Source of the DNA: Rhodospirillales bacterium | GTDB lineage: Bacteria; Pseudomonadota; Alphaproteobacteria; Rhodospirillales; JASLLZ01 | DNA length: 56,879 nt | Assembly (NCBI GenBank): GCA_030754885.1 | Contig: JASLZL010000076.1 | Coordinates: forward strand, 1 to 56,879 | Direction of reading: 5' to 3' | Shown: positions 2,623 through 25,384 of the stretch, one piece after another | How positions within the stretch are numbered: position 1 is the stretch's first letter | Layout of the letters: each line of letters starts with the position of its first letter | The notes under the pieces: model-generated | The model's database searches: none | Seen by the model: the letters and a program-made list of their open reading frames with translations, nothing else | Told to the model about the DNA's origin: nothing | Made by a program: the position numbers and the translations under genes

Positions 2623-3473
2623 CCCGCGGAAGCCTCTCTGACGAATCCTTTTTCCTTCTTGGTCGCTTGCGGATCGGGTGGCGGCTCGGGACCGGAATCG
2701 TCGTCGTCCTCTACCTTGCGGATGGTGGTGCTCCAGTCTTCCTCGCCGTAGATCCTTGTGAGGACGTCGGCCGTGAGGCCATCGGCGTCGCCGTCGAATA
2801 CGATTTCACCTTCGGCGAGGCCGATGACACGGTCGGAAAAAGACTGAGCCAGTCCAACATCGTGGATATTGACCAGCGCCGGCGTTTTGAACTCGTGCGC
2901 CAGCTCCACGATGATGCGCATGATCTGGCGCGAGGTCTTGGGATCGAGGGACGCCGTCGGCTCGTCGACCAGCAACAGGTCGGGTTTCTGCATTAAGGCC
3001 CGGGCGATGCCGACGCGCTGGCGCTGTCCACCCGATAGCGCATCGGCGCGGGTGTTTTGGTAGCCCGTGAGGCCAACGCGATCGAGGAGCTCAAAGGCAG
3101 CCCGGACGTCGTCGGGCGGGAAGTTGCGCCGGTAAGCGCGCCAGAACCCGACGTAGCCGAGGCGTCCCGAAAGTAAATTCTCCATCACCGTCAGGCGTTC
3201 GACCAGATTGTATTCCTGAAAGATCATGCCCATGCGCCGACGCACCTTGCGCAATTCGCGACGGTTCAAGGAGACGACATCGGTGTCGTCCAACATGACC
3301 TTGCCCGAAGTCGGCTCGACCAGTCGATTGATGCAGCGGATCAAGGTGCTCTTGCCGGCGCCGGACGGTCCGATGATGGCGATCACCTTGGGCTCGTCAA
3401 CGGTCAGGCTGACGCCCTTCAGGGCGCTCGTTCCCGTGGGGTAGACCTTGGCAAGATCGGTGATGGTCAGCAT
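2619..3473 (-). CDS. phnC: Phosphonate-type ABC transporter ATP-binding protein
   Basis: This 284-residue ATPase energises the importer on the cytoplasmic face. Walker A is GPSGAGKST (residues 35-43), the signature is LSGGQRQR and Walker B is [13 protein letters not shown]. After the core there is a C-terminal tail rich in Asp and Pro (around [16 protein letters not shown]) that goes beyond the usual PhnC length of about 260 residues. The gene lies between phnD (75-nt gap) and the two permeases. The PhnC assignment rests on both its own sequence and the neighbouring PhnD and PhnE. Confidence 0.93.
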
Positions 3474-3548
3474 GGATGCTCTTTCACGATAGGCCGACGC
3501 CCCCTGATTGCCAGGGACGTCGGCCCGCCGCGTTGGTTTGGTTGGAGC

Positions 3549-4592
3549 CTACTTCTTCTTCTTTTTCTTCGCTCTCTTGGCAGCCACCTTGGCGTCCTCG
3601 GCGCGCAGGGCGTCCTGGCTGTAGACGGTGTCGTTGGCCTGTTGGATGGTGCGAATATCGGACCAGTGGTCCTGGAAAGTGATGGGGAGGAATTTGTCGG
3701 CCTGCTTGCCGAACTCCTTCTCCAGCCCGGTTCCCTTCCAGTCGAAGGAGACGAACGAATAGATGATCTGGCGCGCCAGGTCCGGCTTCAAATTGTGTGC
3801 GTAGCCGTAGGATGTGGTCGGGAACAGCTTCGATTCCCAAATGATGCGCAGGTCGTCTTTGTTTACGACGCCCTTGTCGTGCATGCGATCCAAGACGCTC
3901 GATGCGATCGGCGCGGCATCGTAATCCTTATTGGCTACACCCATGATCGAGTTGTCGTGCTTGCCCGAATAGATCACCTTGTAGTCCACGTCAGGCTTGA
4001 CGCCGAGCGCCCCGAAAAGAGCTCGCGGCGCCTGGTTGCCCGAGTTGGACGAAGGCGTAACATGGGCGATCTTGCGCCCCTTCATATCCTTGAAATCCTT
4101 GATGTCGGTGTCCTTGTGGGTGATCAATTGCAGCTTGTAGCCGAAGGTGCCGTCGGCCCGCCCCATGATGGCAACCGGCACGTAGCCCGCCAAGTTGACG
4201 CCGAACACCGTCGGCCCGGTGGAAATGCCAGCCACGTGCAGGCGGCCCGAGCGCATGGCCTCGACCTGGGCGGCGTAGGATTCGGCGCCGTACCACTTGA
4301 CCTTCTTGCCGGTGTTCTTGGCCAGATAGTCCATGAACTCCGTGAACTGGTTCTCGTAGACAGACGGATCCTCGACCGGCGTGTAAGAGAATATCAACGT
4401 GTCGGGGTCGAGCCACTTGCTTGTATCGGTGGGTGTATCGGCAACCAGATCCTTGTCGTTGTCGCAGAAACGAACGTCCAGATCGCCGCGGTTCTTGCAC
4501 TCTTGAGCAATGGTAGGCGTCGCCGTCGCGAACAAGAGGGCGGCGACAGCGAGGCAGGGTAACAAGCGGTGGTAAATCGATGAAATGGCCAT
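3549..4592 (-). CDS. phnD: Phosphonate/phosphate/phosphite ABC transporter substrate-binding protein
   Basis: This 347-residue periplasmic binding protein has a signal peptide ending near ATPTIAQ. PhnD-family features include the DTLIFSYTPVEDP opening of the mature domain, the SGRLHVAGISTGP segment and a conserved TPSSNSGNQAPR stretch at the ligand hinge. A purine-rich Shine-Dalgarno sequence (AGGGAGAG) precedes the ATG. The C-terminus is odd: it ends in a run of six lysines preceded by AKR, which is not a normal PhnD feature. The ligand could be a phosphonate, phosphite or organophosphate; glpD and HAD genes upstream favour a glycerol-phosphate-like compound, by inference only. Confidence 0.9.
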   Translation of the reverse strand: MAISSIYHRLLPCLAVAALLFATATPTIAQECKNRGDLDVRFCDNDKDLVADTPTDTSKWLDPDTLIFSYTPVEDPSVYENQFTEFMDYLAKNTGKKVKWYGAESYAAQVEAMRSGRLHVAGISTGPTVFGVNLAGYVPVAIMGRADGTFGYKLQLITHKDTDIKDFKDMKGRKIAHVTPSSNSGNQAPRALFGALGVKPDVDYKVIYSGKHDNSIMGVANKDYDAAPIASSVLDRMHDKGVVNKDDLRIIWESKLFPTTSYGYAHNLKPDLARQIIYSFVSFDWKGTGLEKEFGKQADKFLPITFQDHWSDIRTIQQANDTVYSQDALRAEDAKVAAKRAKKKKKK

Positions 4593-4639
4593 AGGACTCT
4601 CCCTGGATGGTTGATAGTTGGGCCCGACGGGCGGTCCTC

Positions 4640-4653
4640 CCTAGGTGCCTAAT
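4640..4653. promoter_or_regulatory. CCTAAT-type motif upstream of phnD
   Basis: CCTAGGTGCCTAAT lies 48-61 nt before the phnD start. Its second half matches the GGTGCCTAAT of the direct-repeat motif upstream of dppA (15220-15235). The first half is imperfect and the spacing is 8 rather than 10 nt, so this may be chance. Confidence 0.25.
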
Positions 4654-4693
4654 TCAAACTGGCTGTCTTGTTCCCATTCGCCGTTCGGCACCA

Positions 4694-4737
4694 TTTGTTG
4701 CAAGATCATCTCTTTTTGCCACGCTCGTTGCAACAAA
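4694..4737. promoter_or_regulatory. Perfect 10-bp inverted repeat upstream of phnD (candidate operator)
   Basis: TTTGTTGCAA (4694-4703) and TTGCAACAAA (4728-4737) are exact reverse complements separated by 24 bp, in the 181-bp gap between the upstream HAD gene and phnD. The GTTGCAAC-like half-sites resemble binding sites of dimeric LacI- or GntR-type repressors. No T-tract follows, so a terminator is less likely. No regulator gene is adjacent. Confidence 0.45.
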
Positions 4738-4773
4738 ACATTTGCGCCGCGCCGCCAAGGTTCGCTTCCGGGC

Positions 4774-5571
4774 CTACAGCCTTGCTTCGAGGAGGGTCTC
4801 GGCAAGCTCCGCGAAACCGGCGCCGGCCGGCTGCCGGGTCACGTAGGCAGGTTCTGTCGCGAGCCGCCCGTCGAAGGCTCGGATGTTGGCCACGCCGACG
4901 GCATTGGGGAAGAAGGCGAACAGGGGTGCGTCATTAGGGGAATCGCCGACGAAGACGAAGGAGTCCCGCTCCGCGTCCAGATCGACGGCAAAGGATTCTT
5001 CGAGCAAGATGCGCGTCATGGTCAGCTTGTCGTAAGTTCCGAACCAGCCGTTGACGTGGATGGAGCTGACCTTGGCCGTCGCCCCCGCCGCCGTCATCAT
5101 CGCGACGACGCGCTCCACCTCTGTCGGCGGCAAGGGGGGCACGTCCTCGCAATAGTCGATGGCGAGGTCGGCCTCGCGGTAGGGTTGGTCCGAGGCCACC
5201 GCCGCCCCGGGAACCTCACGCAGGATCGCATCGCGCAAGCCGTCAAGGCGTCGGCGGTTCGCCGCCCGCTCGTCGGCGTCGAGCCCGAACCGCCGCGTCA
5301 TCCGGCGCGCTTGGTGGTCGTAGCGAAAGTAGAACGCCCCGTTCTCGCCGACCACCGCGTCGATCGGCCACATGCGGGCGATGTGGTCGCACCAGCCGGC
5401 TGGGCGGCCGGTAACGGGGATCACCAGCAACCCCGCCGAGCGCAGCTGTTCCATGGCGCCATAGGCCTCCGCCGTCATCCGGCCGTCGGTGGTCAGGGTG
5501 TCGTCGATATCGGTCAGAACCCAGCGCACGGCACGCCGGGCCTTGTGCGGAAAACATTCGAGCGGCTTCAT
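4774..5571 (-). CDS. HAD-IIB family phosphatase (Cof/sucrose- or mannosyl-phosphate phosphatase-like)
   Basis: This 265-residue HAD hydrolase has motif I D21-I-D23-DT, a long C2-type cap of about 100 residues, K182 as the likely motif III lysine, and motif IV GDSPND (D210, D214). The cap and motif IV spacing resemble sugar-phosphate or phosphoglycerate phosphatases. The start is set by the ATGA overlap with the glpD stop (5568-5571); a much longer upstream frame only shadows glpD. Coupling to glpD suggests it acts on a glycerol-phosphate or sugar-phosphate derivative. Its fold is unrelated in cap type to the HAD protein at 352-1005. Confidence 0.87.
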   Translation of the reverse strand: MKPLECFPHKARRAVRWVLTDIDDTLTTDGRMTAEAYGAMEQLRSAGLLVIPVTGRPAGWCDHIARMWPIDAVVGENGAFYFRYDHQARRMTRRFGLDADERAANRRRLDGLRDAILREVPGAAVASDQPYREADLAIDYCEDVPPLPPTEVERVVAMMTAAGATAKVSSIHVNGWFGTYDKLTMTRILLEESFAVDLDAERDSFVFVGDSPNDAPLFAFFPNAVGVANIRAFDGRLATEPAYVTRQPAGAGFAELAETLLEARL

Positions 5572-7091
5572 CGGTCGCACCCCTTTCCAGCCATCCATTC
5601 GGCGAGCCGGGCGCGCGTCGCGTCGGCCACGTGGAGGCCGAGCTTGGTGCGCCGCCACAGCACGTCGTCGGGCGTGCGAGCCCATTCCCGGTCCACCAGG
5701 TGGCGGACCTCGGCCTCGTAAAGCCCGCCACCGAAATCCTCGCCGAGGTCCTCCGGACGACCCGCGCCGTCGAGGATTTTGAAGACCCGGCTTCCGTATG
5801 CGCCAGCGTAGCGGCGGCGGAGCGGCGCGGGCAACCATGGAATGGAATCGGCGAGCCGACCCAGAAGCCCATCCAGACCGTCGACCCCGAGGTCGCCGCC
5901 GGGCAGCGGATCGTTGCTGGTCCAGGGCGGCGCCATGAGGTCGACGAAGGGTTGCAGCCTGTCGAGCGCCCGCTCGGCGAGCCGGCGATAGGTGGTGATT
6001 TTGCCGCCAAAGACGGACAACGCCGGCGCGCCGCCGGTGCCTCTTCCGACTTCGAGCCGGTATTCGCGGGTCACCGCCGAAGCGGCACCGGATTCGGCCC
6101 CGTAAAGCGGCCGTACGCCGGAGTAAGACCACACCACGTCGGTGGGATCGACAGGCGCGCGGAAGTACCGGCCGGCGGCCTCGCCAAGGTAGGCGATTTC
6201 CCCGTCGTCGATCCGCACCTCGGCCGGATCGCTGTCGAAGTCGACCTCGGTGGTGCCGATCAGCGTAAAGCGGCCTTGGTAGGGAATGGCAAAGAGGATG
6301 CGGCGGTCGGGTTGCTGGAAGATGTAGGCCATGTCGTGGCCGAACAGGCGCGGGACCACGATATGGCTGCCCTTGACCAGGCGCAACGGCACGGCTGTTG
6401 GCAGTCCGAGAATTTCAGTCGCCACCCGGCCGGCCCACGGGCCGGCGGCGTTGACAATGGCACGCGCCCGGACCATGCGTTCGGGTCCCGCGATTGGGAT
6501 CAGGCGTGCTTGCCACTGGCCGTCGACCGCGTCGGCCGATGCGCAGCGGGTCCTAACCAGAATCTCGGCGCCGCGCTCGACCGCGGACTGGGCGTTGAGA
6601 ACGACCAGCCGGGCGTCGTCGACCCAGCAGTCGGAATAGGCGAAACCCTTGCGGAAATTCCCTTTCAGCGGTTCACCCGCCGGATGTCGGGCGAGGTCGA
6701 GACCTTCGCACTTCGGCAGCGTCGTCCTGTGGCTCAGGTGATCGTAAAGGAACAGGCCGATCCGGATTAGCCAAGCCGGCCGCTGGCCGTCTTCGTGGGG
6801 AAGGACGAAACGCATCGGGCTGACGATGTGCGGGGCCAGCCGAAGCAGGACCTCGCGTTCGGCCAACGCCTCGCGGACGAGCCCGAAGCGGTAGTATTCC
6901 AGATACCGGAGGCCGCCGTGAATCAGCTTGGTGCTTGCCGACGAGGTGGCGCCGCCCAGGTCGCCCTGCTCGCACAGCACCACCGACAAACCGCGTCCCG
7001 CGGCGTCGCGCGCAATTCCGACCCCATTAATCCCGCCGCCGATGATCAACAGATCGACTGGTTCGCCGTCTTGCACCTCGGCACCTCCCAT
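5568..7091 (-). CDS. glpD: Aerobic glycerol-3-phosphate dehydrogenase
   Basis: This 507-residue flavoprotein would oxidise sn-glycerol-3-phosphate to dihydroxyacetone phosphate and feed electrons to quinone at the inner membrane. The FAD-binding motif is IIGGGINGVG (16-25), followed by the family signatures SSASTKLIHGGLRYLE and DDARLVVLNA. The ATG at 7089-7091 gives the usual GlpD length of about 500; a longer frame upstream adds 45 unrelated residues. It heads a same-strand series glpD-HAD-phnD-phnC-phnE-phnE, so G3P or a precursor is a plausible product of the importer's substrate. No glpK, glpR or glpF is nearby. Confidence 0.93.
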   Translation of the reverse strand: MGGAEVQDGEPVDLLIIGGGINGVGIARDAAGRGLSVVLCEQGDLGGATSSASTKLIHGGLRYLEYYRFGLVREALAEREVLLRLAPHIVSPMRFVLPHEDGQRPAWLIRIGLFLYDHLSHRTTLPKCEGLDLARHPAGEPLKGNFRKGFAYSDCWVDDARLVVLNAQSAVERGAEILVRTRCASADAVDGQWQARLIPIAGPERMVRARAIVNAAGPWAGRVATEILGLPTAVPLRLVKGSHIVVPRLFGHDMAYIFQQPDRRILFAIPYQGRFTLIGTTEVDFDSDPAEVRIDDGEIAYLGEAAGRYFRAPVDPTDVVWSYSGVRPLYGAESGAASAVTREYRLEVGRGTGGAPALSVFGGKITTYRRLAERALDRLQPFVDLMAPPWTSNDPLPGGDLGVDGLDGLLGRLADSIPWLPAPLRRRYAGAYGSRVFKILDGAGRPEDLGEDFGGGLYEAEVRHLVDREWARTPDDVLWRRTKLGLHVADATRARLAEWMAGKGCDR

Positions 7092-7552
7092 ACTTTTCCG
7101 GCAACTGACAGGCCCAATTCCAACAATGAACGATTTGAACCATCTTTCAATGTTCGCGATGACGGGAACGGTAGTCAGGGATCGTCCTCCGGACAGCGGT
7201 CGACGACACTTGGCCGGCCCCCACAAGCCTCCCCGCCCATTTGTATTTTAACGATTCGGCGATAGAGGTCCCATGCCCAAGAGAGGTGGCGTTGCGGAGC
7301 AAAATGCCGAAGTTCTAAATCAACGCCGCCATGTCCGCTTTTGGCTATTTCCGGACGTTCTGAGGGCCGTTGATCTCCGTCCGCTTTACCCGTCGAAGCA
7401 GACATAACCGAAGGGTGCGATCAACGTCCGCTGATGACCCAACTCGGACAATACGGACTAGTGGCTGTGGGTCAATTTGGTCCTTTCTTGATTAAAAGGC
7501 TCTGACCTATAGGTGGAAATGTCCGTGGGGGTTGGTCAGCCTGATCGGGCCA
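7092..7552. other. Intergenic region with repeat copy 2
   Basis: This 461-bp gap lies upstream of glpD and downstream of the octopine-dehydrogenase-family gene. It should contain the glpD promoter (minus strand, right of 7091), but no confident -35/-10 pair or Pho box was seen. Repeat copy 2 occupies 7331-7450. A short frame starting at 7273 runs into the repeat and stops within it; it has no recognisable product. Confidence 0.6.
7331..7450 (+). repeat. 120-bp direct repeat, copy 2
   Basis: This is a gapless match to 47-166 in the same orientation with about six mismatches. The two copies are 7.3 kb apart and enclose six minus-strand genes and one plus-strand gene that form one functional block. 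No terminal inverted repeats or transposase accompany it. Confidence 0.9.
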
Positions 7553-8632
7553 TTACTCCGCTTTCCAGCCTTCGCCCACAAGGCGATGGAGTTCCTCGCC
7601 GTTCATGCGCTCCAGCCCAAGTTCCGGCAGGATGTCGTTCTCGGCTGGGAAATCCCGCCCATAGAGGGCGGAGAAGAGGTTGATGCCCGCCTCGTGAAGC
7701 GGCATGGCGACACCGGCGGCGCGGCCGATGGCGACGCTTGGGACTAGGCCGAAGGGCACGTCCTCAACGACGTAGCGGGTATCGAGGGAATTTGGTCCGG
7801 GCGGCCCGCCGCGCCGCGCATGGATGGCGTCGGTCATCTCGGCGACCGGTCCCAGCGGCACGTGGAACGACAGGTGGATGTGCTCGCGAATCGTGCGCAC
7901 GGTGACGCCATAGGCCTCGGCGACCGCAAGGCGCTCAACATCCATCGCCTCGATCAGGCGGCCCACGGTTCCCGTGATCAACTCATAGTTGGCCCACTCC
8001 TCGGCGCGCTCTATGCGCGTCAGGTTGCACAGAGAATTGGCCATGTGGACCGGCGGATTGAGATTGCTGAGCGATATGGCAAGAAGGTCGGAGCGCCGTT
8101 GGAAGTGGTCTCCGAACAGCGCCTGGCACACCTCTAAACCGCGATCCTCATCCGCCAAGGGCAAGGTCGAGACGTCCAGGGTCTTGCGGATGGTCGAGAT
8201 ACCGACCCCCGTTTCCCCTTGGGAGCGTCCTGCCAGGAAGGTTGTCGCCCAAGCGGCGATGGGAATCTGAACACCCCGCTCCGCCAGGAGTTTCGACAGA
8301 TAAAGAGCGCTGAGCGAGCAATGCGAGCTGATGATGACGATTTGATCGGGGTGCAGGTGCGGGGCAGCCTGATCCATGACCATGCGGTGAGCGTTGCCCG
8401 GAACCGCGATCAATACCACGTCCGCGTTCTCCAGCGCCGCCTGACAGGTGGTCGCGATGGTTGGCGAAAAGTTGCCCGACACCTCTCCGCTGGCGGCCAG
8501 TGGCGCGCCCTCCGCGAACGCCTTGGTCGACTTTCCGGACGGTGACCAAAGGGTTGTCTGGTGCCCCTTGTCGGCAAGAAAAGCGATGTATCCGCGGCCT
8601 ATGCCGCCGGCCCCAAGAACTGCTACCTGCAT
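7553..8632 (-). CDS. NAD(P)-dependent octopine/nopaline dehydrogenase family protein
   Basis: This 359-residue oxidoreductase has an N-terminal Rossmann domain (VLGAGGIGRGY, residues 4-14) and an all-helical C-terminal domain with conserved LSNLNPPVHMANSL, typical of the opine dehydrogenase family. Such enzymes reversibly couple an amino acid and a 2-oxo acid with NAD(P)H to form opines. A good Shine-Dalgarno sequence (GAGGAG) precedes the ATG. It is the last gene of the dpp-type operon, 27 nt after the second ATPase. In that context it could oxidise an imported N-carboxyalkyl amino acid or reduce a pathway intermediate. Ketopantoate reductase-like N-termini look similar, but the C-terminal domain favours the opine family. 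Confidence 0.85.
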   Translation of the reverse strand: MQVAVLGAGGIGRGYIAFLADKGHQTTLWSPSGKSTKAFAEGAPLAASGEVSGNFSPTIATTCQAALENADVVLIAVPGNAHRMVMDQAAPHLHPDQIVIISSHCSLSALYLSKLLAERGVQIPIAAWATTFLAGRSQGETGVGISTIRKTLDVSTLPLADEDRGLEVCQALFGDHFQRRSDLLAISLSNLNPPVHMANSLCNLTRIERAEEWANYELITGTVGRLIEAMDVERLAVAEAYGVTVRTIREHIHLSFHVPLGPVAEMTDAIHARRGGPPGPNSLDTRYVVEDVPFGLVPSVAIGRAAGVAMPLHEAGINLFSALYGRDFPAENDILPELGLERMNGEELHRLVGEGWKAE

Positions 8633-8659: not shown

Positions 8660-9594
8660 CTAATTGGTGTGATCGACCGCGCAGCGCGCGGCGGCGAGCC
8701 AATGGCCCGTGGAAACCTCGGTCAGCCGCGAGTCCGGCTCTCCATAATCGAGGGTGGGATCCATCAAGAGGTGTTGGCGCGTACGCTCAACTAGCGGATC
8801 GGGTACCGAGATGGCAGACAATAGAACGCGCGTATAGGGGTGCAGCGGATTTTCGTACAACTCCCGGGTTGGCGCCAACTCGACGATCCGGCCGCGGTAA
8901 ATAACCGCCACTCGATGGCAGATGTGGCGAACCATGTTGAGGTCGTGGGAAATGAAGAGATAGGTCAGGTCGAGCTCTTCTTGCAGATCCTGCAACAGGT
9001 TGACCACCTGGGCTTGAATGGAGACATCAAGGGCCGAGATCGGTTCGTCGGCGATGATAAGGCTCGGCTTGAGCGCGATGGCGCGGGCGATGCAGATACG
9101 CTGTTGTTGTCCGCCTGAGAACTGATGCGGATACCGTTTGGCAAAGGCCGGGTCAAGACCGACCTTGCGGAAGAGGTCGGCAACGTATTCTTCTCGCTCG
9201 CCCGGCCCCGGCATCAAGCCATGGATGACAAGCGGTTCGGCAACGAACCCACCGACGCGCATACGCGGATTGAGCGAGGCGTAGGGGTCTTGAAACACCA
9301 TCTGAAAGCGCCGCCGAACCGGTCTCAGCTTCGCCGTCGTTAACCCGGTGATTTCCGCGCCCTCGAAGCGGATCGACCCCGACGTTGGCGGAACCAGCAT
9401 GGTGACGGCGCGCCCGATGGTGCTCTTGCCGCTTCCCGATTCGCCAACCAGACCCATCGTATGGCCGCGCTCTATATCGAAACTGACATCGTCGACGGCC
9501 CTGAGATCGACCCCGGGCCGCCATAGGAATGGGTGCTGCAACGGAAAGGTCTTGACCAGATTGCGTACCGAGAGAAGCGGTGCCGGCTCTGCGT

Positions 9595-9598
<4 letters not shown>
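8660..9598 (-). CDS. dppF: Oligopeptide/dipeptide ABC transporter ATP-binding protein (DppF/OppF-like)
   Basis: This 312-residue ATPase has Walker [10 protein letters not shown], signature FSGGQQQR, Walker [17 protein letters not shown] and the C-terminal oligopeptide-transporter extension with [11 protein letters not shown]. It overlaps the other ATPase gene by 4 nt. Together they form the heterodimeric motor of a DppABCDF-type importer. The signature GGQQQR and the [10 protein letters not shown] loop place it in the DppF half. Confidence 0.93.
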
Positions 9599-10599
<1,001 letters not shown>

Positions 10600-10609: not shown

Positions 10610-11794
10610 TCAGACCTGCAGATACCCGTTGTCGGTGGTGGTTAGGAACTCACATCCGTCGTCCGTGATCAGCACCAAATCCGAATGCTGCAGGCCACCC
10701 CAGGGGGGAATGCGCAGATTGGGCTCGAAGGTGCACACCATGCCGGGTGCCAGCACGATCTTGGAGTCGGCATCAAGCGACGGATCCTCGTGGGCGCCCA
10801 GGCCCATGCCGTGGCCGATGCGCCCCGGCGTGTACTTCGCGTAGCCCAGGTCCGCGTAGGCCTGCTTGGCGGTGTCATAGAGCTCAGCCACCGAGATGCC
10901 GGGCTTGAACAAGGGCTTGGTGCGGGCTCGCACCTCCAGAATGGCGTCGTAAGCGGCCCTTTTCTCATCGTTCAAGGGGCCGACGGCCACCGTGCGTTCG
11001 TTTTCGGCATGCATGCCGTTGGCATTGGTCCAAATCATGATCAGCACCAGTTCACCCTTCTTAGGTTTGCGGCGCTTGGGATTGTCAGCGTTGATGGCCA
11101 CCCGGTCGCCGGCCAGAGTCCAGCACCACAGGCCGTTGTGGACGCCGCCTTCCAAGCTGCCGAAGTCACAGACCTCGATGTCCGGATAGTCCTCGATCCA
11201 TAGGCGGTTCATGGCCCCCATGGCCGCCACCGACGCCTGCTGCTCGTTGGCCCCGGCGGAAACGGCGGAGATGGCTGCATCCATACCAGCGTCAGACAGC
11301 TTCGCCGCGATGCGTATGCAGTCGATCTCGTAAGGTTCCTTGACCAGGCGGGACTTGGCGATCACGTCGGAGATATCGGAGAACGTGGCGTTGGGGAACG
11401 CGGCTTCGAACTGGCGCATCCGAGCGACAGGGAGGAAGTTTTCCTCGATCCCCAGTGGCCCGTCGGCGACGCCCAATTCGCTCAGAATCTCGCCCAGGGC
11501 TGTCAGCCAGTTGGGTCCCATGGTTTTTTTGATGCCCCAGGCGCCATAAAGCCGGATATCGCGCACCCAAGCCGACTCGTGGGAATGATCATCGCGCAGG
11601 GCGTGGACCAGGACCACGGGATCGCCCTTTGCGGGCAACACCGCGACGACGGGGTGGCTGTAGATGATCGGGTTAAAGCCACTGAGATAAAAACTGTTTT
11701 CCGGCTTCATGCAGATCATGGCGCCGATACCGCGCGCCGCAAGGTCCTCTTGCAGACGACGAATGCGGTCCTGGCCGACGGAATTCTGTTCCAC
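10610..11794 (-). CDS. M24-family (creatinase/aminopeptidase P fold) hydrolase with altered metal ligands
   Basis: This 394-residue protein has a creatinase-N domain (about 10-150) and a pita-bread C-terminal domain. True aminopeptidases P carry D, D, H, E and E as metal ligands. Here the first Asp position is M253 (VLIMIW), the second is E264 (HAENERT), H328 (GRIGHGMG) and E357 (TFEP) are kept, and the last Glu position falls in LQHSD. It is therefore unlikely to be a dimetal prolidase and is more like metal-independent creatinase, which hydrolyses creatine to sarcosine and urea. It sits inside the dpp operon between the permease and ATPase genes, so it probably acts on the imported substrate. 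Exact substrate unknown. Confidence 0.8.
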   Translation of the reverse strand: MEQNSVGQDRIRRLQEDLAARGIGAMICMKPENSFYLSGFNPIIYSHPVVAVLPAKGDPVVLVHALRDDHSHESAWVRDIRLYGAWGIKKTMGPNWLTALGEILSELGVADGPLGIEENFLPVARMRQFEAAFPNATFSDISDVIAKSRLVKEPYEIDCIRIAAKLSDAGMDAAISAVSAGANEQQASVAAMGAMNRLWIEDYPDIEVCDFGSLEGGVHNGLWCWTLAGDRVAINADNPKRRKPKKGELVLIMIWTNANGMHAENERTVAVGPLNDEKRAAYDAILEVRARTKPLFKPGISVAELYDTAKQAYADLGYAKYTPGRIGHGMGLGAHEDPSLDADSKIVLAPGMVCTFEPNLRIPPWGGLQHSDLVLITDDGCEFLTTTDNGYLQV

Positions 11795-11830: not shown

Positions 11831-12685
11831 TCAACGCGAACCGCTCATTTTTGGGTCGAAATAATCTCGCATCCAATCCCCCAGCAAGTTGACACCGAGC
11901 ACGACAAGGACGATCGCGACGCCCGGAAAGGTCGATAGCCACCAGCCGGACGAGATGTAGCCCCGTCCATCGGCCAGCATGCGGCCCCAACTGGCGTGCG
12001 GCGGCTGCACCCCTAGGCCGAGGAAGCTCAGGGCCGATTCGAGAACGACGACACGGGCCAGTTCAAGCGTGGCAACCACGATCGCGGCGGTCAGAACGTT
12101 GGGCAGGATGTGGCGAAAAAGGATCCGGGCGCGCCCCGCGCCGGCTCCTCGCGCGGAAAGCACGAATTCCTGCTCGCGCAATGACAAGACCTCGCCACGC
12201 GTGATCCGGGCGAACCGTGTCCACCCGGTCAGGGCAAGGACGATGACCAGGTTGACGAGGCTGGGCCCGAGGACGGCAATGACGATCAGCGCGAAGAGCA
12301 ACAGCGGAATAGAGAGCTGAATATCGGCGATCCGCATGATGATTCGCTCGTTCCAGCCGCCGAAATAGCCGGCGACCAAGCCCAGAGAGACACCGATCGT
12401 TGCGCCTAACAGCACCGCCGTTGCCGCGACGAGGAGGGTGACGCGACTGCCGGTGATGATACGGCTTAGAATATCGCGCCCGATCTGATCGGCCCCCAGC
12501 GGGAAATCGCCAGGCCCGGAAAGAGACATCGTCGGGGGAGCCAGCCGCTTCTTCAGATCCATCTTTAAGGGGTCGTGCGGAGCCATGATCGGGGCGGCGA
12601 GCGCCGTTATCAGGAACAGGGCGACGAAAGTGGCGCCGAACAGGCCGGCCCGGCTGGCCACGAGGTGACGAAAAAAGCGGCTCAC
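11831..12685 (-). CDS. dppC: Dipeptide/oligopeptide ABC transporter permease (DppC-like)
   Basis: This 284-residue inner-membrane permease starts with an N-terminal segment seen in DppC/OppC (FRHLVASRAGLFGATFVALF), followed by the GADQIGRDILSRIITGSRVTL motif and an EAA loop around SARGAGAGRARILFRHILPN. About six transmembrane segments are evident. Its start overlaps the dppB stop by 4 nt. It pairs with DppB as the translocation channel. Confidence 0.92.
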   Translation of the reverse strand: MSRFFRHLVASRAGLFGATFVALFLITALAAPIMAPHDPLKMDLKKRLAPPTMSLSGPGDFPLGADQIGRDILSRIITGSRVTLLVAATAVLLGATIGVSLGLVAGYFGGWNERIIMRIADIQLSIPLLLFALIVIAVLGPSLVNLVIVLALTGWTRFARITRGEVLSLREQEFVLSARGAGAGRARILFRHILPNVLTAAIVVATLELARVVVLESALSFLGLGVQPPHASWGRMLADGRGYISSGWWLSTFPGVAIVLVVLGVNLLGDWMRDYFDPKMSGSR

Positions 12686-13602
12686 CGGTTGATCCTGATC
12701 CGCGGGTCCAACAGGCCATAGGTCAGATCGACCAGCAGATTAATCAAGATGAACATCGCCGAGATGACGGCAACCCCAGCCTGGACGACCGGGAAATCCT
12801 TGCTCTGAATCGCCAGCAGAATGACGCGACCGACCCCCGGCCACGAAAAGATGGTTTCCGTCACTACCGCTCCGCTGAACAACTCGCCGGCCAGAATGCC
12901 CAACATGGTCACCACCGGAATCAAGGCATTTCGCGCCACATGGCGCATGAAGACGAGGTGGCTGACCAGACCCTTGGCCCAGGCCGTGCGGATATAGTCT
13001 TCTTTTAGGATTTCGATCATGCTGGAGCGCAGAAGTCTGGCGATGCTGGCGCTCGTGAAGGTCGCCAAGGTGATCGCCGGAAGCACCAGATGGGCGAGAG
13101 TTCCCCGTCCCCCCGCCGGCAGCCAACCGAGTTGGACGGCGAAAACGAGAATGAGGATGATCCCGAGCCAGAAAATGGGCGTTGCTTGCCCTAAAAGCGC
13201 GGTCGTCATCGCGATCAATTCGAGGAAAGTACCGCGTTTGAGGGCAGCGACGAAACCCGCGATGACGCCGATCACCATCCCCATAACGAGCGCCACTAAG
13301 GAAAGCTGAATGGTCGCCGGAAAGCGTTCCAGAACAACGTCCATCGCCGGCCGCTGGTGGAGGAGCGATTCGCCGAAATTACCCCTGACGGCGTCCGCCA
13401 GGAAAATGGCGTATTGCTCCCAAAGCGGAAGATCGAGCCCCAGTGCATGGCGGAATTCGGCGAGATCCGCATCCGTTGCGCCAAGCGGAAGCATCAACAC
13501 CGCCGGATCCCCGGTCAGCCGCGCCGCGACGAAAACCAACGTCAACAATCCCCATATGGCGATTAAGGCTTCGCCGAGGCGCGACAGAACGTACTTGGGC
13601 AT
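12682..13602 (-). CDS. dppB: Dipeptide/oligopeptide ABC transporter permease (DppB-like)
   Basis: This 306-residue inner-membrane permease has the DppB-type opening MPKYVLSRL, the conserved LGLDLPLWEQYAIFL and GNFGESLLHQRP segments, and an EAA loop (YIRTAWAKGLVSHLVFMRHVARNALIP). It is separated from the binding-protein gene by about 30 nt and overlaps dppC by 4 nt. Six transmembrane helices are expected. Confidence 0.93.
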   Translation of the reverse strand: MPKYVLSRLGEALIAIWGLLTLVFVAARLTGDPAVLMLPLGATDADLAEFRHALGLDLPLWEQYAIFLADAVRGNFGESLLHQRPAMDVVLERFPATIQLSLVALVMGMVIGVIAGFVAALKRGTFLELIAMTTALLGQATPIFWLGIILILVFAVQLGWLPAGGRGTLAHLVLPAITLATFTSASIARLLRSSMIEILKEDYIRTAWAKGLVSHLVFMRHVARNALIPVVTMLGILAGELFSGAVVTETIFSWPGVGRVILLAIQSKDFPVVQAGVAVISAMFILINLLVDLTYGLLDPRIRINR

Positions 13603-13632: not shown

Positions 13633-15147
13633 TCAGCGCGGTTTGATGTCCATCGCTCTAAACCATTCGTCGCCACGCTTTTGCCAGCTGATGGACTTGG
13701 ACTGTGCCCAAGTTTTCGGCTGATGGAACATGGAGACGTGCGGCGGATCGGCGCATATGGTCTCGGACGCCTCCTTGTAGAAACTCAGGCGTTCCTTCTT
13801 ATTGGTCGTCGAGCGCGCCTTGGACAAGAGGTCCTTGAACTTCTGGTTCTCGTAATAGGCATACTTGTTGCCCGGCTCGAACAGGGTCAGAAGTCCATCC
13901 GCGTCCAGTGTCGGCCATGCCATCCCAAGATAGGCCATGTTGCCGAGATTGCCCGCCTTGCGGAACTTGGTCAGCCACTGGCCGAAATCCATCTCGATGA
14001 TTTTGGCCTGGACGCCGACCTCACCCAACTGCGCGGCAATGATTTGGCCGATTTCCTCGCCTTGCAGATAACGCTTGGTCGGCACCTCGAAGTCGACCTT
14101 CAGGCCGTTCGGATAGCCCGCCTCGACAAGCAGCGCCTTGGCCTTTTTCGGGTCGTACGGAATCGGCTTCAAGTCGGGATTGAACCCGAAATAAGCCCCC
14201 GACATGGGCTGGCACCTGGCGATTGAGCCATGGCCGTCCCACAGGCTGTCGATAATGGCCTGGCTGTCGATCGCGTGGTTGATCGCCAGGCGCAGTTTCT
14301 GATTGCCCTTAAACGGAGGAATCAGGTTATTGAATTTGAGCATCATGAAGCGAATGCTCGGTTCGGCACCGGCTTCTGCGCGGCCGCTGGCGTTGATGCG
14401 GGCGATCTCTGACGGCGGGAAGCTGTGAATCAGATCGACCTCGCCGGCAAGCAGCGCGGCGATGCGGCTCGAGGCCTCGGGCATAACGCGGAAGATGGCG
14501 GTCTTGAACGTCGCTTTCGCGCCCCAATAATTGTCCTTGGCGCGCAGTTCAAGATGGTCGCCGCTCTTAAACGTGACCAGATCGTAGGGTCCCGTCCCCA
14601 TCGCTTCGATAGCCGGGTTATGGTCCTGCGACCATTTCGGCGGCAAAAGGAAGAACATCGAAAGCTGGTCGGCGAGCGCCGCAAACGGCTTGTTGGTTAT
14701 TAATTCGAGGGTCGTCGGATTGATGACCCGGACCTCCTTGATCGGCGTGAACCACGCCCTGATGCGCGCCTTGAGCTTGGGGTCGAGGACGCGATCGACA
14801 TTCCACTTCACCGCCGCGGCATCCATCTTCTCGCCGTTCGGGAAGGTTACGCCGGGCACCAGTTCGAAGCGCCACGTCAGGTCGTCGACCGCGCGCCACG
14901 ACTTCGCCAGGTTTGGCTTGAGCTTCAAGTCCGGGCCACGGATGACGAGTGAACTGTACAGATGGCTGATGACGCTGAGATCGGTATCGGCGGTTGCTGT
15001 CTTGTGCGGATCAAGGGTGTTGACATTGGCAACAAGCCCGATCGTAACCTTGTCCCCGGCAGCTTGCACCGTGTTCGAAACAAGAGCGGCCGTTGCGAGG
15101 AGCAGGCCACCGACGGCATACGCAAAAGCACGAATAATACGTGACAT
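13633..15147 (-). CDS. dppA: ABC transporter substrate-binding protein, family 5 (DppA-like)
   Basis: This 504-residue periplasmic solute receptor (SBP family 5) has a signal peptide ending around VSNTVQA-AGDK, then the family sequence VANVNTLDPHKTATADTDLSVISHLYSSLV and a late GYPNGLKVDFEVP segment. The ATG at 15145-15147 has a GGGAG Shine-Dalgarno sequence and sits right before the signal peptide; a longer frame upstream adds 94 residues that include non-signal sequence. It is the first gene of the operon. The ligand may be a peptide, opine or small amide; the downstream enzymes argue against a simple nutrient dipeptide. Confidence 0.92.
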   Translation of the reverse strand: MSRIIRAFAYAVGGLLLATAALVSNTVQAAGDKVTIGLVANVNTLDPHKTATADTDLSVISHLYSSLVIRGPDLKLKPNLAKSWRAVDDLTWRFELVPGVTFPNGEKMDAAAVKWNVDRVLDPKLKARIRAWFTPIKEVRVINPTTLELITNKPFAALADQLSMFFLLPPKWSQDHNPAIEAMGTGPYDLVTFKSGDHLELRAKDNYWGAKATFKTAIFRVMPEASSRIAALLAGEVDLIHSFPPSEIARINASGRAEAGAEPSIRFMMLKFNNLIPPFKGNQKLRLAINHAIDSQAIIDSLWDGHGSIARCQPMSGAYFGFNPDLKPIPYDPKKAKALLVEAGYPNGLKVDFEVPTKRYLQGEEIGQIIAAQLGEVGVQAKIIEMDFGQWLTKFRKAGNLGNMAYLGMAWPTLDADGLLTLFEPGNKYAYYENQKFKDLLSKARSTTNKKERLSFYKEASETICADPPHVSMFHQPKTWAQSKSISWQKRGDEWFRAMDIKPR

Positions 15148-15464
15148 GAAAGATTTCTCCCTTTTGGTTAACGGACGCGGTCGGGCATATTGCATGGCAG
15201 CCGTTTTCGGATGCCGTTTCCTAATGGTGCCTAATCCGACGTCAACTTCGACGCAGAAATACGTAACGTAAGCAAAACTATACTGCACCCGGCTCGCTGT
15301 GCACAAGATCGCATCCGCTGCACCGGTGGCGTCGAGATTTGGTGCCGCTACGGGCCGCTCCCAGTGCTTGCCGTCCGCTCGGCTCTTGTCGAACCGGTTC
15401 AGAAAGAGGAAGCTGGAAAAGATAATCAAACATCGGCCTCGACTGAGCGATCTTGGAGGGTTAG
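15148..15464. other. Divergent promoter region between dppA and the cysteine hydrolase
   Basis: This 317-bp gap separates two divergent transcription units and should carry promoters for both. The left part is moderately A/T-rich around 15250-15290. A direct repeat of CCTAAT (15220-15235) is the clearest candidate control element. No small gene was found. Confidence 0.5.
15220..15235. promoter_or_regulatory. CCTAAT direct repeat, 10-bp period (candidate regulator site)
   Basis: CCTAATGGTGCCTAAT contains two identical CCTAAT half-sites exactly one helical turn apart, 73-88 nt upstream of the dppA start. A near match (TAATGGTTCCTAA, 20282-20294) lies in the gap upstream of hyuA. Direct repeats one turn apart are used by several MocR/GntR-type regulators. 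No regulator gene is visible here. Confidence 0.4.
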
Positions 15465-16151
15465 ATGCGGGTGACTGGCGGGCGGGAAATTCTTACCGAA
15501 CTCGACGAGATTGTTGATCCCAAGCACACGGCGTTGATCATTGTCGACATGCAGAGAGATTTCTGCTCGTCGGACGGCTGGTTCGCCCGCCGCGGGGTCG
15601 ATATCTCTTCCGTGCAGGCAGCGGCAGAGAATTTGGTGCCGCTGTTGGGCAACGCCCGCCAGGCGGGCGTGCTGCCGATTTACATTCAAATGCAGATTCT
15701 TCCGGGCTTCAAATCGCTGTCGGGATCGTATCTGCGTTTTCTCACCGAGATTGGGAAAATCATGGACTCTTCGGGCGAGAGTTTCACGATGCCCGGAACG
15801 CGCGGCGCTGAAATCATTGACGAATTGGCACCGCAAGAGGGCGAAATAGTGATCCAGAAATGGAGATCAAGCGCCTTCGTCGGCACCAGCCTCGATATGA
15901 TCCTCAAGTGCAACGACATCAAGTCCGTCATCTGTTCCGGGGTGGCAACCCATGCCTGCGTCGATTCCACGGCGCGCGACGCCACATTTTACGATTACTA
16001 CACCGTCGTGGCCGAGGATTGCGTCGCCGATTACGATTCGGAACTGCACAATGCGTCGCTTCAACTTTTGGCCCATCGTTTGGACGTAGTGTCGTCGAAA
16101 TCAATCGGTCGTCTTTGGGAACAGCCGGTCGCCGCGATTGCGGGAGAGTAA
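15465..16151 (+). CDS. Isochorismatase-family cysteine hydrolase (N-carbamoylsarcosine amidase-like)
   Basis: This 228-residue protein is a cysteine amidase of the isochorismatase fold. The catalytic triad is visible as D28 (IIVDMQRDF), K132 (IQKWRSSAF) and C165 (GVATHACVDSTARDA). Proteins of this subgroup include N-carbamoylsarcosine amidohydrolase, N-carbamoyl-D-amino-acid hydrolase relatives, nicotinamidases and biuret hydrolases. It is divergent from the dpp operon and converges on the hyuB-hyuA pair. That neighbourhood favours hydrolysis of an N-carbamoyl amino acid made by the hydantoinase, releasing CO2 and ammonia. Substrate is inferred. Confidence 0.87.
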   Translation: MRVTGGREILTELDEIVDPKHTALIIVDMQRDFCSSDGWFARRGVDISSVQAAAENLVPLLGNARQAGVLPIYIQMQILPGFKSLSGSYLRFLTEIGKIMDSSGESFTMPGTRGAEIIDELAPQEGEIVIQKWRSSAFVGTSLDMILKCNDIKSVICSGVATHACVDSTARDATFYDYYTVVAEDCVADYDSELHNASLQLLAHRLDVVSSKSIGRLWEQPVAAIAGE

Positions 16152-16175
16152 TCCCAGTGATCTTTGATGCTTCGT

Positions 16176-17849
16176 TCAATCGGTCGGAAGGCCGTAGATG
16201 TCGCGGGCCGTTGATTGCGAGATACGCTCCTCGGTCAAATCTCTTTGAACGAGGGTGCGCTCACGAGTGCCGGGATCGCCATATCCACCGCCCCCGGCGG
16301 AAACCACCGCCACGGATTCGCCGGCCGGGACGATGCAGTTCGGCCCCACGGGCGGCGTAACGCCGGCACTCCATTCCAGTCGGGAAATGCCGCCTGACCG
16401 GCCGCCGAACAATCCCAAGGGGGGCGTCTGGTTACAAGCACCCCACATGAAAACCCGTGCCTCGTGATCGACGGCTCGGATACGGCGCCTTACCGCCATG
16501 CCGCCACGGTATTTTCCGGTGCCGCAGGAATCCTCGACGAGCTCGTAGCGCTCGACCACCAGGGGATGTTGAGATTCAAGCGATTCGATGGGCTGATTGG
16601 CACCGTTCATGCAATGCGCCATGGTGGCGTCCATCCCATCCTTGGTGGCGCGTGCGCCCAGGCCACCGCCGACCGTCTCGTTGTAGACGTAGAATTTACC
16701 GGTGCGTGGATTGATGCCGCTGAAATTGACCAAGGCGCCCCCCGTGCTGTGGGAAACGACGCGGTCGGGAATCGCGGGCGCCAGCGCGGCAAAGATCATA
16801 TCCGCGAGCCGTTGGCAGACCTGTGTGCGGCTGAAGACGGCGGCTGGTGCAATCGCATTGACCACTGAGCCCTCCGGCGCCGACACGTGGATCGGTCGGT
16901 AAAGACCCGCATTGGGTGGAATGCCGGGATCGACGAGGGCTTTCACCGCGTAGTAGATCAATGACAACAGCGCCGTCCACACGACGTTGATGGAGCTTCG
17001 CACTTGTGGCGGGTTGCCGGCGAAGTCAAAAAACAACTCATCGCCACGCACTTCGATCGCCACCTTGAGCTCCAAAGTGCCCTCGAAGGTGTCGCTGTCG
17101 AGACCGTCTTCGAATTGATACGAGCCATCCGGGATCAAGGCGATGCCGGCCCGTGTCCGCCGCTCCGCATAGTCGAGCAGGGCCTCGCAAGCAGCCAGCG
17201 TATGATCCATGCCGTATTTCGCACACACCTTCTCGAAGCGCTGGATGCCCATCCGGTTGGCCGCCATTTGAGCGCGGAAATCGTTGAGCCGATCACTCGG
17301 CACCTGGCAGTTGAGGAGGATCATCTCCATGACGTCCTCTTGCAGAACGCCCTCGCGATAGAGCCGCACCGGCGGAATGCGCAACCCTTCTTGGAAGATG
17401 TGCGCGTGGCCGCGATCGACGAAATCCGCATGATGCGCAACGTTGGTTGCCCAGGCGATAAACCGGCCCTCATAGAAGATCGGTTCGATGATTACGATGT
17501 CGTTGAGATGCGTCCCGCCGCCCGTATAGGCGTCGTTGCCAACGAAGGCGTCGCCGGCGCGGATGTCATCGAGCGGGTGGCGCTTGAGCACGTGATCGAC
17601 GATGCCGATCAGCGAGCCGAGATGCATCGGAATGTGCTCGGCCTGGGCGAGGGTGCGTCCCTTGATGTCGAACAGCGCCGTCGAGCAATCGCGCCGCTCC
17701 TTTATGCTGGTTGAATAGGCGGCGCGGATCAGGGTCTCGCCCATTTCCTCGACGATCGTCAGCATGGCATTGCCGATGACCTCGACCGTGATCGGATCGA
17801 CGGTCGGGCGGGCCGGACCCGGCGCCTGTTGATCGGGGGGCACGGTCAT
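16176..17849 (-). CDS. hyuB: Hydantoinase B / 5-oxoprolinase family subunit
   Basis: This 557-residue subunit works with HyuA in ATP-dependent hydrolysis of a cyclic amide (hydantoin, N-methylhydantoin, oxoproline or similar). Family landmarks are TVDPITVEVIGNAMLTIVEEMGETL at the N-terminus, STSIKERRDCSTALFD, and the VGGGLGARATKDGMDATMAHCMNG block near residue 390. The start overlaps the hyuA stop by 4 nt (17846-17849). Acetone and acetophenone carboxylase subunits are homologous, but the extra carboxylase gamma subunit is absent. Confidence 0.92.
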   Translation of the reverse strand: MTVPPDQQAPGPARPTVDPITVEVIGNAMLTIVEEMGETLIRAAYSTSIKERRDCSTALFDIKGRTLAQAEHIPMHLGSLIGIVDHVLKRHPLDDIRAGDAFVGNDAYTGGGTHLNDIVIIEPIFYEGRFIAWATNVAHHADFVDRGHAHIFQEGLRIPPVRLYREGVLQEDVMEMILLNCQVPSDRLNDFRAQMAANRMGIQRFEKVCAKYGMDHTLAACEALLDYAERRTRAGIALIPDGSYQFEDGLDSDTFEGTLELKVAIEVRGDELFFDFAGNPPQVRSSINVVWTALLSLIYYAVKALVDPGIPPNAGLYRPIHVSAPEGSVVNAIAPAAVFSRTQVCQRLADMIFAALAPAIPDRVVSHSTGGALVNFSGINPRTGKFYVYNETVGGGLGARATKDGMDATMAHCMNGANQPIESLESQHPLVVERYELVEDSCGTGKYRGGMAVRRRIRAVDHEARVFMWGACNQTPPLGLFGGRSGGISRLEWSAGVTPPVGPNCIVPAGESVAVVSAGGGGYGDPGTRERTLVQRDLTEERISQSTARDIYGLPTD

Positions 17850-19957
17850 GTCGGCGACACCTCGATGATGATGTTGAGATGCGAATCGACGATTGCCGTC
17901 TGCTCGGGCAACACGAGCACGGTCGAATCCATCTGGTCGCTGAGCGCCGGGCCGATCAGCCGGTTCCCCGGCCGGAGCTGCTCTCGATCATACACCGGGC
18001 ATGTCACGAAGCCGTTCGCTTCGGGGAAATATACGTCGCGCCGGCCGATAACGGCGGCGCCGGCGTCCGCCCCTTCATCGGGATAAACGGGCAGCGCCGC
18101 CTTGGGAACGATACCCGACGCCTCCAGGCGGAAGGTCGTTATCTGAACCGGCTCCTCCGCCGCAGTGTAGCCATACGTCTGGCGGTGCAGGCTTTCGAAC
18201 GCCTGGCGCAGCATGGGCAGCATGGTTGCATCGATGGTGCCGGGTGGAAGCGGCACGCTGAGTTCATAGCTTTGCCCCGCATAGCGCATGTCGATGGCCC
18301 GTGCCAGCAGGCGGGCCTCGGGCGCAATCGCGTGGCGCTCGAACCAGTCGGCCGACTGGCTATGGAGGGTCGCGAACGCCTTGGCCATCGGTTCGAGCGC
18401 TGACTCGTCGAGCGCAAGGAGCCGCGTCATCGAGGTGTTGGTCCTGAGGTCGGTCAGCAACAGGCCAAGGGCGCTCAAGATTCCTGGATTCTTCGGCACG
18501 ATGATACGCGGCACCTCGAGTTCCCGCGCCAGCCGGGCGGCGTGCACCGGACCGGCACCGCCAAACGCCACCAAGGTGTAATCGCGCGGATCGTGGCCAT
18601 GCTGCACCGAGATCACGCGGATCGCCTTGACCATGTTGGCGGTAACCACGCTGACGATGCCCTGCGCCGTCGCCAATACGTCGAGTCCAAGGCGGTCGGC
18701 CAGCCCCTCGATCGCTCCTTTGGCGTCCTCTTGGAATATCTTCATCCGCCCGCCGAGTAGTTGCGTCGGGTTCAGTGTCTGGAGCACGACATTGGCGTCG
18801 GTGACCGTTGGCTCGTTGTTGCCGAGGCCGTAGCACACTGGCCCGGGGACGGCGCCGGCGCTCTCGGGACCGACCTTGAGAAGGCCGCCGCTATCGATAT
18901 AGGCGATAGAACCGCCGCCGGCGCCGACGGTGTTGATGTCAAGCATCGGTGCCTTGATCGGGTATCCGTGCACTGTTGCCTGGCTGACCTGCTTCGGCTG
19001 TCCGTCGTCGATCAGCGACACGTCGCTCGACGTACCGCCCATATCGAAGGTGATCAGGTTCTCGAAGCCGGCCAGTCTTCCGATATGCAGCGCACCGACG
19101 ACGCCCGTGCTGGGACCGGAGAGCAAGGTGCGAACCGGGGTTTCCTGGGCCGCCTCGAAGGAAATGACGCCGCCGTTGCTTTGTGTCAGGTGGGGCGGCA
19201 CGATGGCGCCGATGTCGGCCAAGCGCGGACGCAGCCGTTCCAGATATGAGCTCATCACCGGGCCGAGATAGGCGTTGACGATCACTGTCGACAGCCGTTC
19301 GTACTCGCGGAACTCAGGCGCCACCTCGTGCGATGCGCTGACGAAGGCGGAGGGAAATTCCTCGGCGACGATCCGTTTCACCAGCTCCTCGTGCGTCGAG
19401 TCGAGATAACTATAGAGAAAGCAAATCGCCACCGACTCGACGCCGGCTTCCTTTAACCGGCGTACCGCCGAGCGCACCTCTGCCTCATCAATCGCTTTTT
19501 CGACCCGGCCGTCGAAGTGAATGCGTTCGCGAACCTCGATCCGCATGTCGCGCCGAACCAGCGGCTCGGGCTTGTCCGCTTGCAGGTCGTAAAGTGACGT
19601 GCGGCGCTGGCGGCCGATCTCCAACAGGTCGCGGAAACCTTCGGTCGTTATCAGTCCCGTCTGCACGCCTTGGTGCTGTATCAGCGCATTGGTTGCCACC
19701 GTGGTGCCGTGCCCGATATAAGTCACCTGAGGGGGCGCGTCTGTCTCGTTTCCCGCCCCTTCGCCGGCCGCCCTCTTCACCCCGTCTTCGATGCCCTTGG
19801 CAATGGCTTGAGACGGGTCGTCCGGCGTGCTGCTCACCTTCCAAACCCGGATCGCGCCGGTGCCCTCATTGAACAGACAGACGTCCGTAAAGGTGCCGCC
19901 CGAATCAACCCCAACCCGCCAACGCATCGCTTCATCAATCGTCAAGGGACCATCCAT
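17846..19957 (-). CDS. hyuA: Hydantoinase A / 5-oxoprolinase family subunit
   Basis: This 703-residue ATP-binding subunit has the sugar-kinase/HSP70-like nucleotide fold, with RVGVDSGGTFTD (D18-D25) at the N-terminus and ITFDMGGTSSDVSLI further on. It would phosphorylate the cyclic amide and work with HyuB. An alternative ATG at 19927 is possible; neither start has a clear Shine-Dalgarno sequence. With HyuB and the carbamoyl-amidase-like neighbour it suggests the route cyclic ureide to N-carbamoyl amino acid to amino acid, as in N-methylhydantoin degradation to sarcosine. Confidence 0.92.
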   Translation of the reverse strand: MDGPLTIDEAMRWRVGVDSGGTFTDVCLFNEGTGAIRVWKVSSTPDDPSQAIAKGIEDGVKRAAGEGAGNETDAPPQVTYIGHGTTVATNALIQHQGVQTGLITTEGFRDLLEIGRQRRTSLYDLQADKPEPLVRRDMRIEVRERIHFDGRVEKAIDEAEVRSAVRRLKEAGVESVAICFLYSYLDSTHEELVKRIVAEEFPSAFVSASHEVAPEFREYERLSTVIVNAYLGPVMSSYLERLRPRLADIGAIVPPHLTQSNGGVISFEAAQETPVRTLLSGPSTGVVGALHIGRLAGFENLITFDMGGTSSDVSLIDDGQPKQVSQATVHGYPIKAPMLDINTVGAGGGSIAYIDSGGLLKVGPESAGAVPGPVCYGLGNNEPTVTDANVVLQTLNPTQLLGGRMKIFQEDAKGAIEGLADRLGLDVLATAQGIVSVVTANMVKAIRVISVQHGHDPRDYTLVAFGGAGPVHAARLARELEVPRIIVPKNPGILSALGLLLTDLRTNTSMTRLLALDESALEPMAKAFATLHSQSADWFERHAIAPEARLLARAIDMRYAGQSYELSVPLPPGTIDATMLPMLRQAFESLHRQTYGYTAAEEPVQITTFRLEASGIVPKAALPVYPDEGADAGAAVIGRRDVYFPEANGFVTCPVYDREQLRPGNRLIGPALSDQMDSTVLVLPEQTAIVDSHLNIIIEVSPT

Positions 19958-20330: not shown

Positions 20331-20509
20331 ATGAGTGGATCGATGACGCATTGGGAACGGATCGAGGCGGCGCTCAAGGGCGAGGCGGTCGATCGGCCAT
20401 CGATAAGCCTGTGGCGCCATTGGCCGGGCGAGGACGATACGGCCGAGGGTCTCGCCGCCGCCACCGTCCGCTGGCAGAAGGCACATGACTTCGATCTCGT
20501 CATCTATTC
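20331..20509 (+). pseudogene. Truncated uroporphyrinogen-III decarboxylase-family gene (N-terminal fragment)
   Basis: About 60 residues resemble the N-terminus of URO-D-family proteins: THWERIEAALKGEAVDRPSISLWRHWPGED, then a helix ending in KAHDFDLVIYSS. Full family members are 340-380 residues and continue after the FDLV strand, but here the homology stops near 20505 and the frame then reads into unrelated sequence. The catalytic and methyltransferase-type residues are missing, so the product cannot be functional. Starts at 20331 or 20343 are both possible. The downstream sequence belongs to a different gene, so this is a deletion or recombination scar, or an assembly join. Confidence 0.65.
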
Positions 20510-22030: not shown

Positions 22031-22130
22031 GGATGGACCCTCCCCAATATTTCGTTCGGGCGCCAAGATAGCGACGTTCAAGAAAGCACGCAACCAAGGT
22101 ATGAATGCCCGGAAGAGGACGATGCGCGGG

Positions 22131-23387: not shown

Positions 23388-23521
23388 GGATTTCCCTTAT
23401 TGCCAGCGCATTGCCACCATACTGGGTGACGCCGATAGTGAATACAACCGCTTTTCCGCGGTGACCCGAAGGCCGCCTGGCTTTATAGTCGCGGCGGCAA
23501 ACATCGCCCGAGGAGGAATAC

Positions 23522-25336: not shown

Positions 25337-25384
25337 GGGCCCCAAGGCGTATCCTCATAAGGTGGATGAGAGCGGACAGGCTTG

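Follow-up and report, generated by a model that had tools for sequence, protein, structure and literature searches.

What chemistry is carried out by an M24-fold protein that is encoded within a peptide-type importer operon and would readily be named Xaa-Pro aminopeptidase? The question is raised by a contig of a Rhodospirillales bacterium (JASLZL010000076.1), of which a stretch of 56,879 nucleotides, referred to as the window, was analysed. The M24 gene takes fourth place in a compact run of seven minus-strand genes, given here from the first to the last:

13633..15156, minus strand: family 5 solute-binding protein of the importer (SBP_bac_5, 1.7e-72)
12682..13602, minus strand: permease, DppB-like (Pfam)
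11831..12685, minus strand: permease, DppC-like (Pfam), ending 36 bases before the M24 start
10610..11794, minus strand: M24/creatinase-fold protein of 394 amino acids, GTG start, stop included
9595..10599, minus strand: ATPase, DppD-like (Pfam), starting 10 bases past the M24 stop
8660..9598, minus strand: ATPase, DppF-like (Pfam)
7553..8632, minus strand: member of the octopine/opine dehydrogenase family, closing the run (Octopine_DH, 9.9e-34; best PDB relative the opine dehydrogenase 1bg6, 1.9e-40)

The M24 reading frame runs from 11794 to 10610 with zero internal stops, and a GGAGGAG stretch lies 10 bases 5' of its GTG start. Pfam assigns Peptidase_M24 (E 7e-34) and Creatinase_N (E 2.9e-21) to the product, and matches to M24 enzymes from Foldseek and VIA-align likewise place it in the M24, or pita-bread, superfamily. 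An ordinary Xaa-Pro peptidase whose ligands had been misaligned would account for some of these matches: the best PDB sequence matches are metallo-prolidases, ahead of creatinase (1pv9 at 4.1e-32 versus 1chm at 2.8e-19), and the best NCBIfam model is a prolidase (NF040821). That model nevertheless stays below threshold, at 127 bits against a cut-off of 630, and the Xaa-Pro peptidase model NF008131 gives 42 bits against 465.

Relatives of the protein come from genomes and plasmids. Two were found among genome contigs (L009 and L010, 68% and 67% identical to the window protein). In searches of genomes the clade was matched in one of two at the family level (its own only), in two of 199 at the order level (its own and G065, at 71%), in two of 385 at the class level (its own and G427, at 67%, whose contig is the same as L010), and in two of 398 at the phylum level (its own and G829, at 56% by BLASTP). 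Plasmid records gave 602 matches, nine of which are 52.7-55.1% identical while the next-best reaches 28%. These nine belong to Rhizobium sp. WYJ-E13, Neorhizobium galegae (four), Neorhizobium sp. EC2-8, Sinorhizobium medicae (two), and Microvirga lotononidis, and six were taken into the comparison of loci. The viral contigs scanned to deepen the M24 alignment contained no relative. The ten intact members form a single branch with 100/100 support. No description of the clade was found in the literature searched, from which subscription papers were mostly out of reach.

The HAENER motif of the clade was also considered as a family tag and rejected, as it is not diagnostic alone. Its DNA pattern occurs in 48 of 385 Alphaproteobacteria genomes, and among the 55 matches listed two are known clade members (the window and G427). 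BLASTP with the window protein gave no match in 30 loci carrying the pattern (L024-L053), many of which read GHAGHAENERADxLAR and presumably encode RNase HI.

Xaa-Pro peptidases require five metal ligands, D-D-H-E-E, at which the window protein reads M-E-H-E-S (M253, E264, H328, E357, and S371). The residues on which the original prediction relied (M253, E264, H328, E357, and G-L-Q-H370-S371-D372) are numbered exactly in the minus-strand translation, although the prediction named no strand; its list lacked E266, the counterpart of the Glu of the LERT motif (E262) in creatinase. The sites that matter in what follows are these:

11132..11164, minus strand: 11-residue insertion found only in the clade and rich in invariant residues, among them E215 and N220; it spans residues 211-221 (FGSLEGGVHNG) and is a gap in the creatinase and prolidase rows
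11036..11038, minus strand: codon of M253, first metal-Asp site; M, F or L in all ten members
11003..11005, minus strand: codon of E264, second metal-Asp site; Glu in all ten members
10997..10999, minus strand: codon of E266, which corresponds to creatinase E262; Glu in all ten members
10811..10813, minus strand: codon of H328, kept His ligand site, matching creatinase H324
10724..10726, minus strand: codon of E357, kept Glu ligand site, counterpart of creatinase E358
10682..10684, minus strand: codon of S371, last metal-Glu site; Ser in all ten members, followed by invariant Asp372

In a MAFFT alignment of the clade members with PDB rows and plasmid M24 outgroups, the ligand columns read hydrophobic-E-H-E-S in every one of the ten intact members. 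The full D-D-H-E-E set is present in nine controls, namely all five PDB prolidase and aminopeptidase rows together with H18, H20, H13, and L011; of the remaining three plasmid outgroups, H17 reads D-E-H-E-E, H12 (L061) reads S-E-H-E-S, and H10 lacks the ligand set. Two further M24 proteins from the same genome, the aminopeptidase-like C92 and the methionine-aminopeptidase-like C111, align with all five ligands, and the loss in the clade is therefore no alignment artefact. The claim that prolidase ligands have been lost is thus borne out, with two gone and one changed from Asp to Glu. As a marker of this loss M253 holds in part: the missing Asp at the first site is conserved, but the Met itself varies among members. 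Since the ligand set is lost in all members and kept in the controls, the window protein is no ordinary Xaa-Pro peptidase, a reading to which we give only a very small chance. A complete dinuclear metal site is ruled out, and Xaa-Pro aminopeptidase would therefore be, as was argued originally, the wrong name.

The name matters beyond this gene. Clade proteins are annotated as Xaa-Pro peptidases, for instance in Sinorhizobium medicae, and are thereby hidden from pathway reconstruction. The genome of the window encodes ten M24 domains by PF00557 (L067-L076), and D-D-H-E-E is complete in just two, C92 and C111; in the other eight it is incomplete, though one of these (C110) is cut at a contig end and displays its first two sites only. 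Mis-naming is consequently no rare event there. Among the incomplete ones are an ectoine-hydrolase-like protein (507 bits against a cut-off of 613), two relatives of it, and C8 and C73, which read G-H-H-H-G at the five sites.

The reading that we favour, with moderate confidence, is that the clade protein is a non-peptidase M24 hydrolase predicted to cleave a C-N bond in an imported small molecule and to do so with no dinuclear metal centre. It draws on sequence for the loss of ligands in all members, the retention of a creatinase-type Glu/His/Glu, and an operon that is itself conserved. We infer metal independence from the residues, and one metal ion could still be bound by E264, H328, and E357. 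A mononuclear metalloenzyme of this kind, with water or H370/D372 completing the site and a peptide-like or amide substrate, is conceivable if doubtful. It would fit the Glu, His, and Glu found at three of the five ligand positions in all ten members, an importer of the peptide family, and prolidases as the best PDB matches. The first Asp and last Glu are, however, absent throughout the clade, and the same His and Glu persist in creatinase (H324 and E358), so that those two alone imply no metal.

Values of dN/dS among four rhizobial members (L056, L057, L059, and L060) are 0.05-0.09, which shows strong purifying selection on the M24 gene there; between the window and L014 dN/dS is 0.135, with dS near saturation. 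Frameshifts split several operon genes in two Neorhizobium loci, L058 and L060, and in L058 the M24 gene is among them; these splits are perhaps sequencing errors. Residues invariant in all ten alignment rows include E215, N220, D237, H262, E264, E266, H328, E357, S371, and D372, while H370 is replaced by Ile in the rhizobial half of the clade. If the M24 protein were catalytically dead and served the transporter operon as a binding or regulatory subunit, this would explain why metal ligands are lost and why the gene is wedged among permease and ATPase genes in nine of 11 loci. Two observations make such a pseudoenzyme unlikely: the invariant residues of the clade gather in the pocket motifs ADN, HAENER, PGRIGH, EPN, and QxSD, as would be expected of a catalyst, and S. 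medicae retains the gene with no peptide-type importer gene within 13 kb (L055, pMl1).

The position of the M24 gene between DppC and DppD in those nine loci (the window, L009, L014, L054, and L056-L060) ties the protein to the import of a small solute; in L010 it opens the run. Under the hydrolase reading, the peptide-type ABC importer would bring in a small nitrogenous solute, on which the M24 enzyme would act in the cytoplasm in the manner of creatinase or ectoine hydrolase. The bond cut would be a non-peptide C-N bond, such as that of an amidine, guanidine, cyclic imine or unusual amide. E266 and E357 may hold and polarise the cationic carbon-nitrogen group, E264 and/or H328 may activate a water, and residues 211-221 would shape the substrate pocket. 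The opine-dehydrogenase-like neighbour could then act on the product or on a precursor.

Downstream partner enzymes would vary by lineage, being opine-dehydrogenase-like in the window and a set around an S/N-oxide reductase in rhizobia. The opine-dehydrogenase-like partner occurs in three of 11 loci (the window, L010, and L014) and an alpha/beta hydrolase in eight. An S/N-oxide reductase (TIGR00509, 697 bits, cut-off 1018) is found in seven and is partial at the contig end in L010, a Pyr_redox_3 flavoprotein and a CMD/alkylhydroperoxidase pair are found in six each, and a Cds1-type cysteine desulfhydrase (567-583 bits, cut-off 600) in two; absences at locus ends (L009, L010, and L014) may reflect truncation. 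L014 carries in addition genes for L-asparaginase II and for a LysR protein, the latter divergent. In L056 (16096-20980) and L054 (1374-5786) the S/N-oxide reductase, the CMD pair, and the Cds1-like gene run together with the M24 importer operon, possibly as a sulfur or N-oxide pathway.

A more specific and more speculative proposal is that the clade represents a new activity, a creatinase-like M24 hydrolase with an E-x-E/His/Glu/Ser-Asp site of its own. A dedicated importer would supply this enzyme with an amino-acid derivative of plant or opine type, whose C-N bond it would open. In rhizobia it might feed the S/N-oxide reductase, the alkylhydroperoxidase-type pair, and sometimes a Cds1-type pathway, and the rhizobial substrate would then be a sulfur-bearing or N-oxidised amino-acid derivative. 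The sulfur interpretation would depend on an oxide-reductase family also active on N-oxides and on a Cds1-like gene present in two loci only. The idea of a thiazoline-carboxylate hydrolase gave nothing usable in a literature search. The operon, with its importer, regulator, and partner enzymes, offers a direct handle for finding the substrate.

Several further genes lie near the M24 gene. Two genes stand immediately 5' of it in L055 (11768-12735): one is DUF3830-like, by a weak match of 22.8 bits against 26, and the other encodes a Cucumopine synthase C-terminal domain (3e-25); like the opine dehydrogenase of the window, the latter is a putative link to opines. Past the importer operon of the window (15465-19957), an isochorismatase-fold hydrolase lies opposite HyuB and HyuA genes. 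The HyuA/HyuB products are caprolactamase alpha-like (607 bits against a cut-off of 1000). A connection of these and the isochorismatase gene with the M24 operon is conceivable; among the other loci compared HyuAB lies near the M24 gene only in S. medicae pMl1 (52% and 48%). Further along, a 49-residue remnant of the UroD family (20355-20501, plus strand; 49% identical) corresponds to a gene that is intact in L010, and four DAO-family FAD oxidoreductases and a DHDPS-family gene fall within 9 kb (20768-29235).

The comparison with creatinase refers to positions of 1chm; 7yto and 1kp0 are other creatinase structures. Creatinase, which is not known to need a metal, has in common with the window protein an M24 fold that lacks the dimetal set. 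The two also share the xERT Glu, the GH His, the MEP/FEP Glu, and an Asp in the C-terminal xxD motif, and creatinase Glu262, His324, and Glu358 are matched by E266, H328, and E357. Judged by residues, creatinase is the nearest functional analogy. The likeness ends at H232, which falls on A236 or a gap, at R64, which falls on H47, and at R335, which falls on a gap. The first is the catalytic base of creatinase, and the two arginines bind the creatine carboxylate. Because these three residues are without counterparts, creatine is an unlikely substrate, and the label creatinase-like applies to the shared Glu/His/Glu and does not extend to creatine itself. A true creatinase, converting creatine into urea and sarcosine, would suit the common fold, those three counterparts, and the four DAO-family oxidoreductases 9-17 kb away, a family that includes sarcosine oxidases. 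We regard it as highly improbable, given the three missing residues, the clade-specific insertion, and the finding of no creatininase family among the neighbour genes scanned.

The structure models do not choose between creatinase and the prolidases, and neither tree firmly groups the clade with creatinase. A full-length model built from three sequences has a pLDDT of 55.3, and a model of the catalytic domain built from four sequences reaches a pLDDT of 71.5 and a pTM of 0.77, with residues 211-238 and 326-338 below 50. The latter superposes on creatinase 1chm (Z 24.1, 227 residues, 2.7 A) and prolidase 1wy2 (Z 24.1, 214 residues, 2.5 A) with tied Z scores. The superposition that the original prediction called for has thus confirmed the pita-bread fold but not separated the two enzymes, since they tie and stretches of the active site are modelled below a pLDDT of 50. 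Placement of the clade with creatinase has 54/3 support in one tree, and the joint clade an AU p of 0.318 in the other. Grouping the clade with L061 (AU p 0.293) or with L061 and L016 (AU p 0.347) is not rejected either, and DoeA and the prolidases fall apart from these in a moderately supported group of 15 rows (90/91).

Among known M24 enzymes, the prolidases and aminopeptidase P (1pv9, 1wy2, and 5cdl) are the closest PDB sequences and share the fold, but have all five ligands, of which the window protein lacks two and has a third changed. The DMSP lyase DddP was rejected as an identity, as NF043017 scores 25 bits against a cut-off of 600 and the window protein has lost the ligands; DddP keeps its binuclear-metal ligands (PMC4108388).

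The Cytobacillus oceanisediminis plasmid protein L061 and the paralogue L016 (C87) from the window's own genome resemble the window protein in ENERT and in a non-Asp first site, and the C-terminal RHSD of L061 recalls QHSD. They differ in being only about 28-29% identical to it and in lacking the 211-221 insertion. No characterisation was found for either. The L061 gene adjoins genes for PruA and a BCCT transporter, together with an ornithine cyclodeaminase family gene that is split (1-7128).

EutD/DoeA (6twj, 6twk, and 6yo9; TIGR02993) are, like the window protein, M24 proteins that have lost the ligand set, and are non-peptidase enzymes of solute catabolism. EutD is described in PMC5924519 and DoeA, as an M24 protein similar to creatinase, in PMC3187862; by analogy, DoeA offers an earlier case of an M24 enzyme at work in solute catabolism. 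DoeA differs in having its own Glu at the first Asp site, where the window protein has M253, and in having lost the His and Glu that are still present in the window protein. Identity with EutD/DoeA is rated low on account of that first site, a separate tree branch, and ectoine hydrolase models that stay below cut-off (TIGR02993, 52 bits against 613; NF038259, 91 against 575). From creatinase the window protein differs, beyond the three missing residues, in its additional E264, in the 11-residue insertion, and in S371, where creatinase has H376. If the clade proteins are hydrolases with no dimetal centre, they would constitute another M24-fold route to C-N cleavage besides creatinase and ectoine hydrolase.
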